DNA from: a virus
DNA: 34,348 bases
Virus record (IMG/VR): IMGVR_UViG_3300025120_000009
Coordinates: 1 to 34,348 of that record
Reading direction: 5' to 3' (one strand)
The position numbers were made by a program, and so were the translations under genes. This document shows, piece by piece, positions 3,101 through 27,052 of this stretch (within the stretch, counting starts at the first letter, position 1; each line of letters opens with the position of its first letter). A model generated the notes under the pieces. It searched no databases, was not told where the DNA came from, and saw nothing but the letters and a program-made list of their open reading frames with translations.

Positions 3101-3491
3101 TAATACTTCTGCTAATGGAACTAATGGTATGATACACGCAACTAATGACATTATTGCTTTCTCATCAGATAAAAGATTAAAAGAGAATATTCGCCCTATA
3201 GAAAATGCTTTAGATAAAGTAAGTAAGCTATCTGGATTTGTTTATAACTGGAACGAACTTGCTAATGAAAAAGCAGAATACGATATGGATAAAGACTATG
3301 TTGGTGTATATGCACAAGATGTTGAAGAAGTACAACCAGAAGCAGTCGATCTTGCTCCATTTGATAATGACGGAAAAGATAACTCCATATCTGGTGAAAA
3401 ATATTTAACAGTAAAATATGACAAGTTAGTTCCATTGTTAATCGAATCTATTAAAGAATTAAAAGCAGAAATAGAAGAGTTGAAAAAATGA
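1..3491 (+). CDS. Tail fibre with C-terminal S74 self-cleaving chaperone (3' part)
   Basis: This is the 3' part of a gene starting at 33834; joined through the terminal repeat it encodes about 1,292 residues. Bases 1-2 finish a codon from the previous part. The body is made of Ser/Thr/Asn/Gly-rich beta-structured modules with recurring blocks such as GSGLDADTLDG (twice) and LDADTAHLS followed by QTFSG-KTF (twice). The last ~109 residues, from base 3162, begin SSDKRLKENI and include VGVYAQDVEEV and a terminal alpha-helical stretch. This matches the peptidase S74 intramolecular chaperone of endosialidase, which trimerises fibres and then cuts itself off at a Ser next to a Lys. The protein is the likely receptor-binding fibre. 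The TGA stop overlaps the next ATG. The ATG at 39 is internal, not the real start. Confidence 0.9.
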   Translation, partial: LSTEAVQDIVGAMFSSNTETRVAATYDDTNGKINVVVDDMTANDNTTYSAGTGLDLSGTTFSVDVSDFMTNGVNNRVLTATGTDGINAESSLTFSGTQLTNTGDIKIASGSLGVNTNAPTGDGRITATSYITAGYGTGGVALTHNDGYGNANVTFNHEAGTPEQNGQSARIEVNTDATSTEGLMYFEVSSSDVTSGSAVSLTNGLTVAHDYIEVPSRIRHMGDTNTYIQYDADRIYLVAGGTTKYDSNNGNVIATGDILDQDNMSSNSATAVASQQSIKAYVDAEVAGIVNSAPSALNTLDELAAALGDDANFATTTSTSLGNRLRVDTASQGLTGTQQANAITNLGITATKAELNYVDGVTSNIQTQLNGKLSTSGTAANSTLLGNLGQGSFLRSDAVDTASGKITFTNGMQDNVSNVGSVGGTGLEGDQLSTTDWANLPVGFGGMMRSGNQSYGNPGSNYFLFHKIANRDSGGGWGGIAVGYNSNADFYVGHTTVSSSYATWSKVWNEANDGAGSGLDADTLDGSHASAFLTSVPNHSGNLITSGTIASARLDADTAHLSTTQTFSGAKTFSDSVRITGSTKYLYIDNDAENESGIWLRDNQDPNGQYGKILFNSNGSTNALNFYVQSGTAALQLSSTVSTSPVKKITSGDDFVLGELTNNLRMKGNGTTGFNFLNSGNGWAHLNCGNLVAAGSLDIAGDIDVDGTLETDALTINGTTSVAFTSSDHSKLDGIEASATADQTAAEILTAIKTVDGAGSGLDADTLDGISNSGFVRKGNTAENTPSSRTTFNSYDDIESASGHQASLEIFNDTAQKDAFMQFHVSSDFALYFGLDGSTNDLSVGGWSMGNNKYRVFHAGNSTNITSVGTIGTGVWNGTAIASAYLDADTAHLSGSQTFSGIKTFTEEVRINSSDSGERLFFQWQGTTVGDIGTNDATWLRINQSTAKNIYTPRYIRADNGFFVDGATQGITGGALFRAATGSAAAPALSFASSTALGFYKNGASSIRFSANNAIRGTWDGDGLDLDAGSLGVNTSANGTNGMIHATNDIIAFSSDKRLKENIRPIENALDKVSKLSGFVYNWNELANEKAEYDMDKDYVGVYAQDVEEVQPEAVDLAPFDNDGKDNSISGEKYLTVKYDKLVPLLIESIKELKAEIEELKK

Positions 3492-4618
3492 CACTTACCT
3501 CATCAGGAACAATAAAGATGAGTGAGATAAGAACCGAACTCGGAGATAGTGGCTCTATATCGCTTAAAGAAGCGTCTGACGGCACTATAGCAACTATTAA
3601 CACTAATAACGCAAGCGCAGATCGTCCAGACGGCTCTGCTCCGCACCAAATGACTGAATTTTATAGTTATAATCATAGTGCTGCTCCAGCAGCAGCTTCT
3701 TTCGGTACTTGGAGCGATACAACTATTAGATTTCTTGGTTCTTCTCCTGGCGACGGAATACAAAATCATAATGTTACTACAAACGCTTTAACTGGAGCTA
3801 ATAGTACAATGGCTTGTGATGACACAGTAACCTCTGGAACTCCAAGAGCTTCTGTTAAGGTTGCTATATCAAACAGCGGAGATCCAGGAGATGCTACTGG
3901 TTCGTTTAGTGGCGGCGGTACAAGTAATAACGGTAGTGGCTATGAGGGCATAGGTGGTAATTCAGCAATAGGCAGCGTTGCATTTAGTGGTAGTGTTACG
4001 GCTTATGTAAAATTTGCTATGTTGCCGCATAATACATTAACAGAATCTTCCAATAGAACTATGAGCTTTACAAACAATAACACTTCAGATACAAATTTGT
4101 CGGTATTTGTCAGCGTTTCAAGTTTTGGTGGCTTCTGTATAGGGGAGGTAGTACCAGTTAATTGTTTAAATTCCTATAAGCACATAGAAGAATTAGAAGA
4201 GGGAGATATGGTAATGTCTTTTAACTTTGAAACTAACTCTGTAGAAGAAGTTCCTATACTGGGGATAGAAAAACCAGAACACGACGATTTAGTTATATAT
4301 AGATTTGTAGGAGAAGAAGATATTGTATACACACACGAAAGAACTATGACTATAAACAGAGGGCTAACAATTACTAAAGATCACCCTATTTACAAAGAGG
4401 ACGGAACTATGGTATGTCTAGATCCTGCTAAAGCTAAAGAACTGTATGGATTGGACGCAGAAGAGATACAAAAAGGAGATAGGATTAGATTTATGGACTC
4501 TATTAAAGAAGTAGATAAATATTTATTAAGTCCTGACTCGCAACAGACTTACACAATACTAACAAAGAATAATAACTTTTACGCAGGTGGCGTTTTAGTA
4601 CACTCAGAGATTTCATAG
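3488..4618 (+). CDS. Fibre-associated structural protein with C-terminal Hint (intein-like) domain
   Basis: A 376-residue protein coupled by ATGA to the fibre gene. Residues 1-210 are a Ser/Gly/Thr-rich virion-type region that opens with TSSGTIKMSEIRTELG, a start often seen in marine phage fibre-region proteins. From Cys217 (GFCIGEVVPVNCL) to the end it looks like a Hint domain: nucleophile-type Cys217, the turn IEELEEGDMVMS, the block-B-like LTITKDHPIY with Thr296 and His299, and a final block with GGVLVHS. The usual terminal Asn of inteins is replaced by Ser373 and only three residues follow, so there is no C-extein. This suggests N-terminal cleavage or ester transfer, as in Hedgehog and bacterial intein-like domains, rather than splicing. 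The substrate is unknown. Confidence 0.75.
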   Translation: MTLTSSGTIKMSEIRTELGDSGSISLKEASDGTIATINTNNASADRPDGSAPHQMTEFYSYNHSAAPAAASFGTWSDTTIRFLGSSPGDGIQNHNVTTNALTGANSTMACDDTVTSGTPRASVKVAISNSGDPGDATGSFSGGGTSNNGSGYEGIGGNSAIGSVAFSGSVTAYVKFAMLPHNTLTESSNRTMSFTNNNTSDTNLSVFVSVSSFGGFCIGEVVPVNCLNSYKHIEELEEGDMVMSFNFETNSVEEVPILGIEKPEHDDLVIYRFVGEEDIVYTHERTMTINRGLTITKDHPIYKEDGTMVCLDPAKAKELYGLDAEEIQKGDRIRFMDSIKEVDKYLLSPDSQQTYTILTKNNNFYAGGVLVHSEIS

Positions 4619-4900: not shown

Positions 4901-5188
4901 ATGGAAGTAGGTAAAGACAGTAAATTTACATTTAGCTTAGAAACATTGATTTCTATGGCGGTTACTATCTTTATGGTAGTAGGTATGTGGTTTACTATAC
5001 AGGCAGACATAAAAGAGGCAAAAGAGTTGCCAGAACCAGAAATAGGTAGAACAGAGTACGATTTAAAGGATCAAATGATTAGAAATACGATTATTGAAAC
5101 TGAAAAAGATGTACAAGAGATTAAAGAACAGCAAAAAGAAATGCGTGAAGATGTAAAGAATATCGAACGTATGATGATGCAGAAATGA
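4901..5188 (+). CDS. Single-TM protein with coiled-coil tail (spanin-like?)
   Basis: A 95-residue protein with SD AAGGAG upstream. One hydrophobic segment (about residues 12-34, LETLISMAVTIFMVVGMWFT) is followed by a charged helix, predicted coiled coil, from about 55 to the end (EKDVQEIKEQQKEMREDVK). An N-terminal anchor plus a coiled coil resembles inner-membrane spanins of the Rz type, and the gene lies upstream of holin and endolysin. No matching small lipoprotein (Rz1) was found, so spanin remains a hypothesis. It could also be another membrane accessory protein. Confidence 0.6.
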   Translation: MEVGKDSKFTFSLETLISMAVTIFMVVGMWFTIQADIKEAKELPEPEIGRTEYDLKDQMIRNTIIETEKDVQEIKEQQKEMREDVKNIERMMMQK

Positions 5189-5197
5189 GGTATAGAG

Positions 5198-5599
5198 ATG
5201 AATTGGTTATATGGTATTACATATTTGGTTGGTATTTGTTTATCATTATCGCCCTTATATGCTCAAAGTAGTCTGAAAGACTTACAGCAGATTCAACTAT
5301 TGAGTCAAGATGAGTGCGTTATAGTTCAAGTAAATGCAGACTGGAACTTTAAGGCGTCGTTAGATTTAAACGGTTTAAAGAACTGTATATGGTTTAATGC
5401 TAGCATAGATAACAAAGAGTATGGTGCGATTATTGCTAAGGAGTGGAAAATAGTTTCTGTTCCAACGATAATTATGTTTGAATATGGCAAGGAAATAAAA
5501 AGATTTGAAGCTGGTCTGTCTTTTAATTTAGATGAAGATAAAATTAAAAAGGGAATCAATGGCGAAATAGATAAAATAATGTTAAGGAGATTTCAATGA
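5198..5599 (+). CDS. Secreted thioredoxin-fold-like protein lacking the CxxC motif
   Basis: A 133-residue protein. Residues 1-22 form a signal peptide ending PLYA, with predicted cleavage before QSS. The mature part shows a thioredoxin-like order: a beta strand VIVQVNADW, then WNFK (49-52) at the place where WCGPC would sit, a strand CIWFNASI, and VSVPTIIMFEYGKEI containing the cis-proline-like Pro89 and a following beta hairpin. The redox cysteines are absent; the two remaining mature Cys (40 and 63) are not in a CxxC. It is therefore probably not an oxidoreductase; a periplasmic binding or folding role is possible. The stop overlaps the start of the next gene, so the two are likely made together. 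Confidence 0.65.
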   Translation: MNWLYGITYLVGICLSLSPLYAQSSLKDLQQIQLLSQDECVIVQVNADWNFKASLDLNGLKNCIWFNASIDNKEYGAIIAKEWKIVSVPTIIMFEYGKEIKRFEAGLSFNLDEDKIKKGINGEIDKIMLRRFQ

Positions 5600-6666
5600 G
5601 AAATTTATTATGCGGGTTATTATTACTTAGTTCTGTGTACGCACAAGACTTTTTTAAATTCAGCACAATATACGGTGCTTATAGTTTTAGTAGTCCAGTA
5701 ACAAAAGAATTACAATATCAAGTATCTGGAGGACAACTCCAAGAGTTGCGAGAAGAGCTAGAAGATCATACCGTTATGACTTTCGGTATTAGAAAGTTAG
5801 CTAGATTTGGCTATGAAAATAAGCCTGAAGTTTGGTATACAGGCAAAGAAGCACCTATCAATGAAAGTGCTGCTATTGGTAACATACCAACTGGTTGGGA
5901 ATATGTTATAGAATATTCTGACCATAGAGAATTTGATGAAAAGTTTAAAAATCAACAGTATATGCTTAGGTATATGGGAAAACATTTTATTGCTAAAATG
6001 AATTACGACTTCAGAGGATTAGAAGATGTTGAATTTGCAGGATTAGATATGCGAGTAAAAAAAGACTTTGGTAATCTTGCTTTATCTTTAGGTATTGCAG
6101 GTAGAAGCCACCCAGCATACTTAGACTTTAGACCTATTGATTTATGGTGGGCAGAACAAGGAATTGACACAGATGAATTTACACCCTTTTGGGATTTTGC
6201 TTATTTCTATGGCTATACAGATGAATTTGTAGAGCAGTTTACGCAATACGGATATAGTTACTTTGATTTTAAATGGTACAACGCAGAAGGCGAGCTTGTT
6301 GCTAACACAGATGACCAATTTTATAAACAAGTATACGGGGAAATTGTAAGAGATTATAATGAGGAATGGGCAAAAGATAAGGGCTATCAAAATGAATTAA
6401 GTTTGTCAGTAGGTGCGGATTACTACAAGTATACACCTAAGAACTGGTTTCACTTCTGGGCAACTGCATACCCCGTAACTAAGGGTATGTCCGATTATTC
6501 ATTTAACTACGATGTAGCGGAAAATGGCATGGATTACGATCTAGGTTTAGTCTATGGCTGGAAACTTACCAAAAAGTTTGGAGTATTTTTAGAGGGAAGA
6601 TACCTTAATATGTACGATGTGCAATCATATGAATCAAAGATTGGATTTAATTGGTTGATTTATTAA
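5596..6666 (+). CDS. Phage-encoded outer-membrane beta-barrel-like protein
   Basis: A 356-residue protein with SD AAGGAG and an overlap with the upstream thioredoxin-like gene. Residues 1-16 are a signal peptide ending SSVYA, with cleavage before QDFF. The mature part has no cysteine, is rich in Tyr, Phe and Trp, and alternates polar and hydrophobic residues in strand-like stretches (for example NLALSLGIAG, ELSLSVGADYYKY, MDYDLGLVYGW, KFGVFLEGRYL). It ends ESKIGFNWLIY with a terminal aromatic residue, the usual barrel-assembly signal of outer-membrane proteins. A role in changing the host surface (superinfection exclusion, receptor masking or outer-membrane disruption during lysis) fits the location beside lysis genes. 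No family is recognised. Confidence 0.65.
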   Translation: MRNLLCGLLLLSSVYAQDFFKFSTIYGAYSFSSPVTKELQYQVSGGQLQELREELEDHTVMTFGIRKLARFGYENKPEVWYTGKEAPINESAAIGNIPTGWEYVIEYSDHREFDEKFKNQQYMLRYMGKHFIAKMNYDFRGLEDVEFAGLDMRVKKDFGNLALSLGIAGRSHPAYLDFRPIDLWWAEQGIDTDEFTPFWDFAYFYGYTDEFVEQFTQYGYSYFDFKWYNAEGELVANTDDQFYKQVYGEIVRDYNEEWAKDKGYQNELSLSVGADYYKYTPKNWFHFWATAYPVTKGMSDYSFNYDVAENGMDYDLGLVYGWKLTKKFGVFLEGRYLNMYDVQSYESKIGFNWLIY

Positions 6667-6707: not shown

Positions 6708-6893
6708 ATGAAACTAGACGAACAACAATCAAAATTAAAAGAACTTGTAGAACAGTTTAATCAGAGCAATGAGCAGATGCAAATGCTGCAAGCAAACAAC
6801 GCTGAATTGCGTATGCAAATAGCAAAGCAACAAGGCATTGTAGAAGCTCTACAATCTATGGATAAAGGTAAAAAAGGAAATGCCAAAACTTAA
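6708..6893 (+). CDS. Short coiled-coil protein
   Basis: A 61-residue protein made almost entirely of Gln/Glu/Lys-rich heptads (KLKELVEQFNQSNEQMQML, then NNAELRMQIAKQQ), predicted as one long coiled coil with a basic tail. SD AAGGA lies before the ATG. It overlaps the holin gene by 14 bases, so it belongs to the lysis cassette; small coiled-coil ORFs of this kind are often found next to phage holins. The function is unknown. Confidence 0.7.
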   Translation: MKLDEQQSKLKELVEQFNQSNEQMQMLQANNAELRMQIAKQQGIVEALQSMDKGKKGNAKT

Positions 6894-7251
6894 TGTAATA
6901 GCAGGTATTATAGATAAGGTTGCAGACAATGTTGATAGATTCACATTGGACAAAGAAGAAAAGGCAAAACTTATTGCTGAAATCAATAAAGCACAGCTCG
7001 AAGTTAATAAAGTCGAAGCTGGACATACTAGTATGTTTGTTGCAGGTTGGCGTCCTTTCGTTGGTTGGACTTGTGGTATAGCATTATGTTACCACTTCGT
7101 TCTACAGCCATTCTTACTATTTCTCTTGTATTCATTTGGTTATCAAGTGGATTTACCAGTATTCGATATGACAACTCTCACGACAATACTTCTGGGTATG
7201 CTAGGTCTTGGGGGAATGCGTTCATTCGAAAAAGTCAAAAAGTCGGCATAA
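6880..7251 (+). CDS. Holin, 3TM family
   Basis: A 123-residue protein. An amphipathic N-terminal region (IDKVADNVDRFTLDKEEKAKL) is followed by the motif AGWRPFVGWTCG and two or three membrane segments (about residues 52-70, 72-85 and 95-112), ending with GMRSFEKVK. The conserved WRP followed by hydrophobic helices matches the holin family with three TM segments (GTA-type holins). It would form membrane lesions that release the endolysin. The stop codon overlaps the start of the endolysin (TAATG), the classic holin-endolysin order. Confidence 0.85.
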   Translation: MPKLNVIAGIIDKVADNVDRFTLDKEEKAKLIAEINKAQLEVNKVEAGHTSMFVAGWRPFVGWTCGIALCYHFVLQPFLLFLLYSFGYQVDLPVFDMTTLTTILLGMLGLGGMRSFEKVKKSA

Positions 7252-7724
7252 TGGAGTTCAATGAAATCATTGAGAAAGTCCTCGAACATGAGGGCGGTTA
7301 TGTCAATGATAAAGACGATTTAGGTGGGGAAACCAAATACGGTATTACTAAAAGATTTTATCCCCATCTTAACATTAAGGATCTAACCAGAGAACAAGCT
7401 AAGGAAATTTACTATAAAGACTATTGGATTCCTTCCAAAGCACAAAAACTTCCAGAAAACCTACGTTATCCATACTTTGATTGTGTAGTCAACACAGGAC
7501 AGCGTAGAGCAGTCAAGATACTACAACAGGCGTGTAACAATAAAAATACTTTTGAAATCAAAGAAGATGGACTTATTGGTGCAGCAACAATCTCGGCTTG
7601 TAAGAAATTAGAAGAAGATAGATTTGTTTCTTATAGAATTTTATTCTATTCTTTGTTAATTTCAGAGAACCCTACACAAGAAAAATTTTGGTATGGGTGG
7701 TACAAAAGAGCCAAAGGAGAGTAA
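7251..7724 (+). CDS. Endolysin, GH108 family muramidase
   Basis: A 157-residue protein. The N-terminal motif HEGGYVND, with the likely catalytic Glu14, is followed by DLGGETKYGITK; this matches glycoside hydrolase family 108 (N-acetylmuramidase). The C-terminal half, with VNTGQRRAVKILQQACN, EDGLIGAATISA and a final FWYGWYKRAK, matches the peptidoglycan-binding part normally fused to it. The ATG at 7251 was chosen because it overlaps the holin stop (TAATG). The longer open frame from 7047 would only add out-of-frame holin sequence. Confidence 0.92.
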   Translation: MEFNEIIEKVLEHEGGYVNDKDDLGGETKYGITKRFYPHLNIKDLTREQAKEIYYKDYWIPSKAQKLPENLRYPYFDCVVNTGQRRAVKILQQACNNKNTFEIKEDGLIGAATISACKKLEEDRFVSYRILFYSLLISENPTQEKFWYGWYKRAKGE

Positions 7725-26759: not shown

Positions 26760-26837
26760 ATGCCAAGTGGTAAAGGAACATACGGAAAAAAAGTAGGACG
26801 CCCAAAAAAGAAGAAAAAGGGTAAAAAGAAAAAATAG
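26760..26837 (+). CDS. Basic micro-protein, 25 residues
   Basis: ATG at 26760 with a strong SD (AAGGAG) encodes PSGKGTYGKKVGRPKKKKKG and four more lysines, then TAG. GTYGKKVGRPKKK-type peptides occur in other phages next to the KRGLYANIHAKRKRI protein. The stop overlaps the next GTG. It is essentially a poly-lysine DNA-binding-like peptide. Confidence 0.75.
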   Translation: MPSGKGTYGKKVGRPKKKKKGKKKK

Positions 26838-27052
26838 TGTGGGATTTATTTAAAGATAAAAACGAATACAACGAAAAGAACATTATTGGCTTCTTGTCTT
26901 TTGCTCTAATGTGTGTGTTCGGCATCGTGGATTTAGCAATGGGTATTATTGGAATAGAGCTAATGGTAAATGATTATATTTACAATTCGTTCGTTTGGGT
27001 TACTCTCGGATCATTCGGTATTGCGGGAGCAGAAAAAGTCTACAAAAAATGA
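26837..27052 (+). CDS. Two-TM membrane protein, holin-like
   Basis: A 71-residue protein with a GTG start overlapping the upstream TAG. A charged start (DLFKDKNEYNEKN) is followed by TM1 (about 15-37, IIGFLSFALMCVFGIVDLAM) and TM2 (about 48-66, YNSFVWVTLGSFGIAGAEK). The size and two-helix layout fit class II holins. With another holin next to the endolysin gene, it may be a second holin, antiholin or unrelated membrane protein. Confidence 0.6.
   Translation: MWDLFKDKNEYNEKNIIGFLSFALMCVFGIVDLAMGIIGIELMVNDYIYNSFVWVTLGSFGIAGAEKVYKK

Follow-up and report, generated by a model that had tools for sequence, protein, structure and literature searches.

Gene content of the locus

The window analysed here is a whole viral record of 34,348 bp. 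It has a 127-bp terminal repeat at its ends and therefore probably represents a complete phage genome, and it encodes phage structural genes as well as a holin and an endolysin. Upstream of the holin gene lie three genes (Table 1), a small one that we call rz for its i-spanin-like layout only, trx for an exported protein of the thioredoxin fold, and omp for a predicted outer-membrane β-barrel protein. A preliminary description of this DNA had reported trx and omp as two overlapping genes for secreted proteins inside the lysis region; rz is a partner that it did not mention. Both genes proved to be real ORFs sharing 4 nt (ATGA), each with a Shine-Dalgarno-like motif ahead of it, and signal peptide cleavage between A, G or S and Q is predicted for both products. 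The assignment to the lysis region is correct for the window, where the holin and endolysin genes follow downstream, but does not extend to all relatives: in some type I and type II relatives (see below) the cassette sits among tail genes, with the tape-measure gene on one side and the next tail gene on the other.

Table 1. Features of the rz-trx-omp locus and the adjoining lysis genes (positions in the window).
Feature	Position	Strand	Remarks
rz-like gene	4901..5188	+	95 aa, one predicted N-terminal TM helix
Remainder of the rz-like protein			~60 aa, charged helix/coiled coil, conserved motif ELPxPxxxRTEYDLKDxMIR
trx, exported thioredoxin-fold protein	5198..5599	+	133 aa
Signal peptide of Trx	5198..5263	+	predicted from sequence, cleavage between PLYA and Q23
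C-terminal tail of Trx, ..IMLRRFQ	5576..5596	+	
omp, predicted outer-membrane β-barrel protein	5596..6666	+	356 aa, 12 predicted strands, terminal Tyr
Signal peptide of Omp	5596..5643	+	predicted from sequence, cleavage between SVYA and Q17
Omp insertion, strands 7/8	6109..6390	+	residues 172-265, ~94 residues
Holin (GTA_holin_3TM)	6880..7251	+	
Endolysin (GH108 + PG_binding_3)	7245..7724	+	

Distribution and evolution of the module

A scan of IMG/VR with omp returned 122 relatives (at least 68% identity among the 80 kept); trx returned 81, an alignment of it 116 and a broader alignment 498, and rz at least 425, the counts from different queries possibly overlapping. The type I omp and trx queries thus have more than 80 relatives each, mostly 65-95% identical. 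Median dN/dS, calculated over hundreds of pairs, is 0.16 for trx and 0.10 for omp (0.10-0.16 over the genes of the module). Low dN/dS together with this number of relatives shows that trx and omp are not chance ORFs.

The module occurs in four subfamilies (types I-IV) and in several gene orders (rz-trx-omp, omp-rz-trx, m15-omp-rz-trx and others), and the set stays together. An rz gene is located within 700 bp of 216 of the 219 distinct trx genes with flanking sequence, and 106 of the 109 distinct omp genes flanked on each side by 3 kb or more possess rz and trx within 6.5 kb (identical genes collapsed in both counts). Type I has the order rz-trx-omp, with trx directly upstream of omp in 212/213 loci with room for it (several loci per contig included), so the two genes are kept together; relatives in which they are never adjacent, which would have spoken against the pair, do not characterise the family as a whole. 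One type I locus contains an extra small TM/coiled-coil ORF between trx and omp (L118:5402-5677). Type II consists of rz-trx only; a barrel gene was found in none of the 17 type II records searched (14-51 kb), whereas the same search found one barrel in each of 22 type I/III records. In type III, omp, rz and trx are found together with an M15 endolysin gene in several orders, the endolysin family being inside the cluster in 74/81 loci, and some loci carry extra copies of rz or trx. In type IV, omp-rz-trx lie within 3.5 kb in 53/80 loci, including an Amidase_2 endolysin gene in 16/80; in the others, rz-trx are located farther upstream or the contigs are short.

The proposal that trx and omp act as a pair therefore stands as regards their linkage, but a stand-alone thioredoxin-barrel pair is ruled out, since rz is the constant partner of trx and type II lacks the barrel; for the same reason the two are not "always a pair". 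In type I, the pairwise distances of the three genes correlate with one another (trx-omp r = 0.77, rz-trx 0.65, rz-omp 0.57) far better than with those of the holin gene (r 0.12-0.31 for the triad, 0.12-0.17 for rz and trx). Together with the dN/dS values, these correlations imply that the triad travels and evolves as a unit under purifying selection. Fusion proteins that would prove contact between the partners were absent among 12,710 ORFs (several loci per contig included).

A first scan of genome contigs with the window barrel gave no match. The scan of species genomes with rz revealed two contigs, one labelled as a Bacteroidetes bacterium (L284, genome G040) and one as an Alphaproteobacteria MAG (L283), both carrying omp-rz-trx with a Peptidase_M15 ORF close by. 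The barrels of these type III loci align with the window barrel over the full length (hhalign probability 99.95, E 1e-37, 31% identity), and 185 IMG/VR relatives of the type III barrel were found. The fourth type was met in genome G542, which belongs to the same taxonomic order as G040, and has at least 541 relatives. In tblastn searches of 50,697 annotated phage records, the three type I genes, type III omp and trx and type IV omp and rz had no match; hits to type IV trx were confined to short stretches of ordinary thioredoxins from Streptomyces phages. The module hence recurs in hundreds of marine viral contigs ("marine" being inferred from what is known of the record sets and from the genes present), and these queries found no real relative in the annotated phage records.

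The thioredoxin-fold protein

The preliminary description had noted a thioredoxin-like order in the trx product, and this is borne out: WNFK stands in the place of WCGPC, the nucleophile cysteine being replaced by Asn50, VSVPT retains the cis-Pro motif (V88-P89-T90), and CxxC is missing from the mature protein. A profile search against PDB matched the protein to solved thioredoxins (E 1.3e-4), and its AlphaFold2 model, although of moderate confidence (pLDDT ~69), has the thioredoxin fold, with Z values of up to 10.7 against solved structures. Trx of types III and IV pass the cut-off of Pfam PF00085; the window Trx alone is below it. The protein resembles PF00085 thioredoxins in fold, profile match, the aromatic residue equivalent to W31 and the cis-Pro, but differs from them in being exported, in the replaced nucleophile, in the lack of CxxC and, in the types that bear a barrel, in its C-terminal aromatic tail. 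The export signal is not of the lipoprotein kind, as there is no lipobox.

The nucleophile position, which follows a conserved W/F, is occupied by Asn in 155/165 distinct Trx of types I-III (the remainder having Val or Thr or being unscored), and mature Trx relatives of types I-III and of type IV all lack CxxC. Judged from the sequences, the catalytic cysteine is lost in all types, mostly in favour of Asn, and a role in redox chemistry or disulfide exchange was rejected because of this loss. Two other cysteines, Cys40 and Cys63, do not vary within types I and II and might be joined in a structural disulfide. A type IV contig encodes, separately from the dead exported protein, an ordinary CGPC thioredoxin without signal peptide (L422:3683-3937, minus strand).

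The last four residues of Trx include an aromatic one in 182/187 cases where omp is present and in 0/29 where it is absent. All five exceptions with omp come from loci with further trx copies, and the type I trx L141, which has no omp, carries LRKLK instead of LRRFQ, so that Phe becomes Leu. This co-occurrence is suggestive of Trx docking on the barrel, although it is not a proof, as it goes back to few independent events (the type II clade and L141).

The barrel protein

Omp likewise agrees with its earlier description as a protein resembling outer-membrane barrels, without a cysteine in the mature protein and with a terminal Tyr, which is invariant in type I (type III barrels mostly end in TFR/TLK). 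The AlphaFold2 model, again of moderate confidence (pLDDT ~69), has 12 strands in the order of outer-membrane barrels, and its structural matches were filled by solved proteins of this class (Tsx, Z 15.0; EstA, 14.5; OMPLA, 12.3). Signal peptide, even strand count and C-terminal aromatic residue are all consistent with the predicted location in the outer membrane. The best-predicted part of the model is the 94-residue insertion after strand 7, which is predicted from strand parity to face the outside. It is recognisable in the barrels of types I, III and IV, which have much of the insertion and a GIRKLARFxYE segment in common.

No Pfam or NCBIfam family, Lom/Ail or any other outer-membrane family included, matched Omp at E<=1. 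In predicted strand number and overall fold it is similar to other 12-strand barrels (Tsx, autotransporter translocators, OMPLA), differing from them in the missing Pfam match and the distinct insertion at strands 7/8. Phages are known to encode outer-membrane proteins, e.g., those of the lambda Lom/Ail family and porin morons. Like these, omp lies among late phage genes and encodes a predicted outer-membrane barrel; unlike them, it has no Pfam match, its predicted barrel is larger and it belongs to a fixed three-gene module. A host-derived barrel gene can be dismissed, since among 395 genomes of the class of G040 the only homologue is on the phage-like contig of G040 itself.

Host lineages

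Gln follows the predicted cleavage site in 98/98 distinct Trx of types I/II and in 64/64 full-length type I barrels, a pattern described for Bacteroidetes (PMC5837995). A Bacteroidia host for the window phage was at first drawn from this rule and was then withdrawn for types I/II, whose use of Shine-Dalgarno sites is strong (33/46 gene starts of the window, 9.5 expected); according to PMC9976891, Bacteroidia ribosomes do not recognise such sites. The host of the window phage is therefore probably a different lineage that follows the Gln rule. Types III and IV, which occur in Bacteroidota genomes, have few or no Shine-Dalgarno sites (type III almost none). Shared +1 Gln and differing Shine-Dalgarno use point to the same module in different host lineages.

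Comparison with spanins

The module adjoins endolysins of three unrelated families (GH108, M15 and Amidase_2). Two-component spanins (lambda Rz/Rz1, T4 PseT.3/PseT.2; PMC6139136) resemble it in its predicted layout, with an inner-membrane protein that has an N-terminal TM and a periplasmic helical or coiled-coil part and one or more partners directed toward the outer membrane, and in a usual position near endolysin or holin genes. The difference lies in the outer part: in place of an outer-membrane lipoprotein the module has a dead thioredoxin and a predicted 12-strand barrel, and its components are three separate genes. None of the six frames of the 34,348-bp record contains a lipobox ORF, so a conventional o- or u-spanin is missing; the window offers neither an outer-membrane lipoprotein with lipobox (o-spanin), the gene of which often lies within or overlaps that of the i-spanin, nor a protein combining a lipoprotein signal with a C-terminal TM (unimolecular spanin). 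As a positive control, the same scanner detected lipobox ORFs in 36/80 type III, 2/80 type I and 1/45 type II loci. With one predicted N-terminal TM and a charged helical C-terminal part, rz may have the N-in/C-out arrangement of an i-spanin; its matches to PHROG spanins were insignificant (E 0.37). In 39/81 type III loci the M15 endolysin gene is followed by a gene for a lipoprotein of ~140 aa (cluster cl7; e.g., L390:3994-4422), a candidate o-spanin with the sequence THVLAVTxEGDTLxLPI and then an Asn/Tyr-rich tail.

Possible function of the module

Among the candidate jobs named in the preliminary description, we tentatively prefer an opening of the outer membrane during lysis, at somewhat less than even confidence, and regard the other two, exclusion of superinfecting phages and masking of receptors, as possible. 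In our proposal, likewise held with some reserve, the module would bridge the envelope in lysis, taking the role of a spanin with different parts. The three gene products would form one assembly used late in infection, with Rz in the inner membrane and its coiled coil in the periplasm, the catalytically dead thioredoxin-fold protein serving as a periplasmic adaptor that binds Rz, and the aromatic tail of this adaptor docking on the phage-encoded outer-membrane barrel. After holin and endolysin had cleared away the peptidoglycan, this bridge of Rz, Trx and barrel would pull together or destabilise both membranes. A three-layer bridge in the last step of lysis fits the endolysin neighbourhood and the absence of a lipobox in the window. 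The linkage and correlated distances of the three genes and the co-occurrence of aromatic tail and omp also speak for it. Several observations count against it. Some type I/II phages have the cassette in the tail region, a mere lysis anchor would not need a barrel of this size and conservation, and the lipoprotein present in about half of the type III loci could itself be the o-spanin. Moreover, no phage-encoded outer-membrane anchor was found in type II, as these records lack the barrel.

A further point against lysis comes from type IV, where a gene for a large T9SS-exported protein accompanies the barrel gene in 71/80 loci (cluster cl1, L424-L503; a profile check of the T9SS domain covered one protein, the others being grouped by BLAST with their C-termini read by eye). 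These proteins (e.g., L422:10205-13186, minus strand) have ~800-1160 aa, a signal peptide and a C-terminal Por_Secre_tail (T9SS sorting) domain, with GCTDPxAxNYDPxANTDDGSC-type repeats in at least one member, and appear to be phage-encoded type IX secretion cargo. Their position beside the barrel gene suggests a surface role, and the main rival to a lysis bridge is accordingly a remodelling of the cell surface, in which the barrel alters the surface of the infected cell and blocks superinfection or re-adsorption of virions while Rz and Trx tether or assemble it. The large, conserved and predicted extracellular insertion would suit this function, as would the shifting of the cassette between tail and lysis regions in the manner of a moron. 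Nevertheless, we consider it rather unlikely: the predicted surface domain belongs to the best-conserved parts, which is not typical of surfaces in an arms race, type II retains rz-trx without any barrel, the linkage to endolysin genes is strong, and PADLOC, which covers known defence families, found no match for the module.

The retention of rz-trx in type II also weighs against an assembly system, i.e., a redox-dead chaperone tethered to the inner membrane by Rz that folds or delivers the barrel or another envelope protein. Thioredoxin folds can serve as binding scaffolds without redox chemistry, and the restriction of the aromatic tail to Trx found alongside a barrel would be in line with such a chaperone, but the function of the barrel itself would be left unexplained, and we regard this explanation as improbable. 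If instead the barrel were a sensor of superinfection or lysis timing from which an outside signal reached the holin through Trx and Rz, much as lysis inhibition works, its conserved, predicted extracellular insertion and the recurrent neighbourhood of lysis genes would be understandable; the poor correlation of rz and trx with the holin gene and the persistence of the triad while holin and endolysin families vary make this quite improbable. It is very improbable that the proteins are components of the virion or tail, as the position next to the tape-measure gene in part of types I and II might imply: trx and omp encode signal peptides, rz encodes a TM helix, and the genes are frequently located away from tail genes.

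No spanin was found in 91 of 677 phages in a survey (PMC6139136), and for the North Sea flavophages the relevant passages of PMC8776804 name only Ingeline and Nekkels as having (unimolecular) spanins. How phages without recognised spanins open the outer membrane is poorly known, and a bridge formed by the module would be a testable answer. With slightly less confidence, the module might constitute a third architecture for breaching or remodelling the outer membrane by phages, built from a coiled-coil protein in the inner membrane, an adaptor derived from an inactivated thioredoxin and a dedicated barrel, and carried by viral contigs of 34 to >200 kb with hosts of at least two lineages and coupled in one branch to a phage-encoded, T9SS-exported surface protein. 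If true, an inactivated thioredoxin serving as an adaptor in the envelope and a type IX secretion cargo encoded by a phage would be added to the systems known.

Additional observations

By eye, the C-terminal part (CIGEVVPVNCLNS...LVHSEIS) of a tail-region protein of the window (3488-4618) resembles a Hint (hedgehog/intein) domain. The window (26837-27052) also encodes a small conserved TM protein, possibly a second holin, which is found too on the type IV contig mentioned above (L422:13193-13480) and in clusters of type III (cl11) and type IV (cl5); the types have the motif NEKNIIGFxSF...IYNSFVWVTLGxFGI in common.
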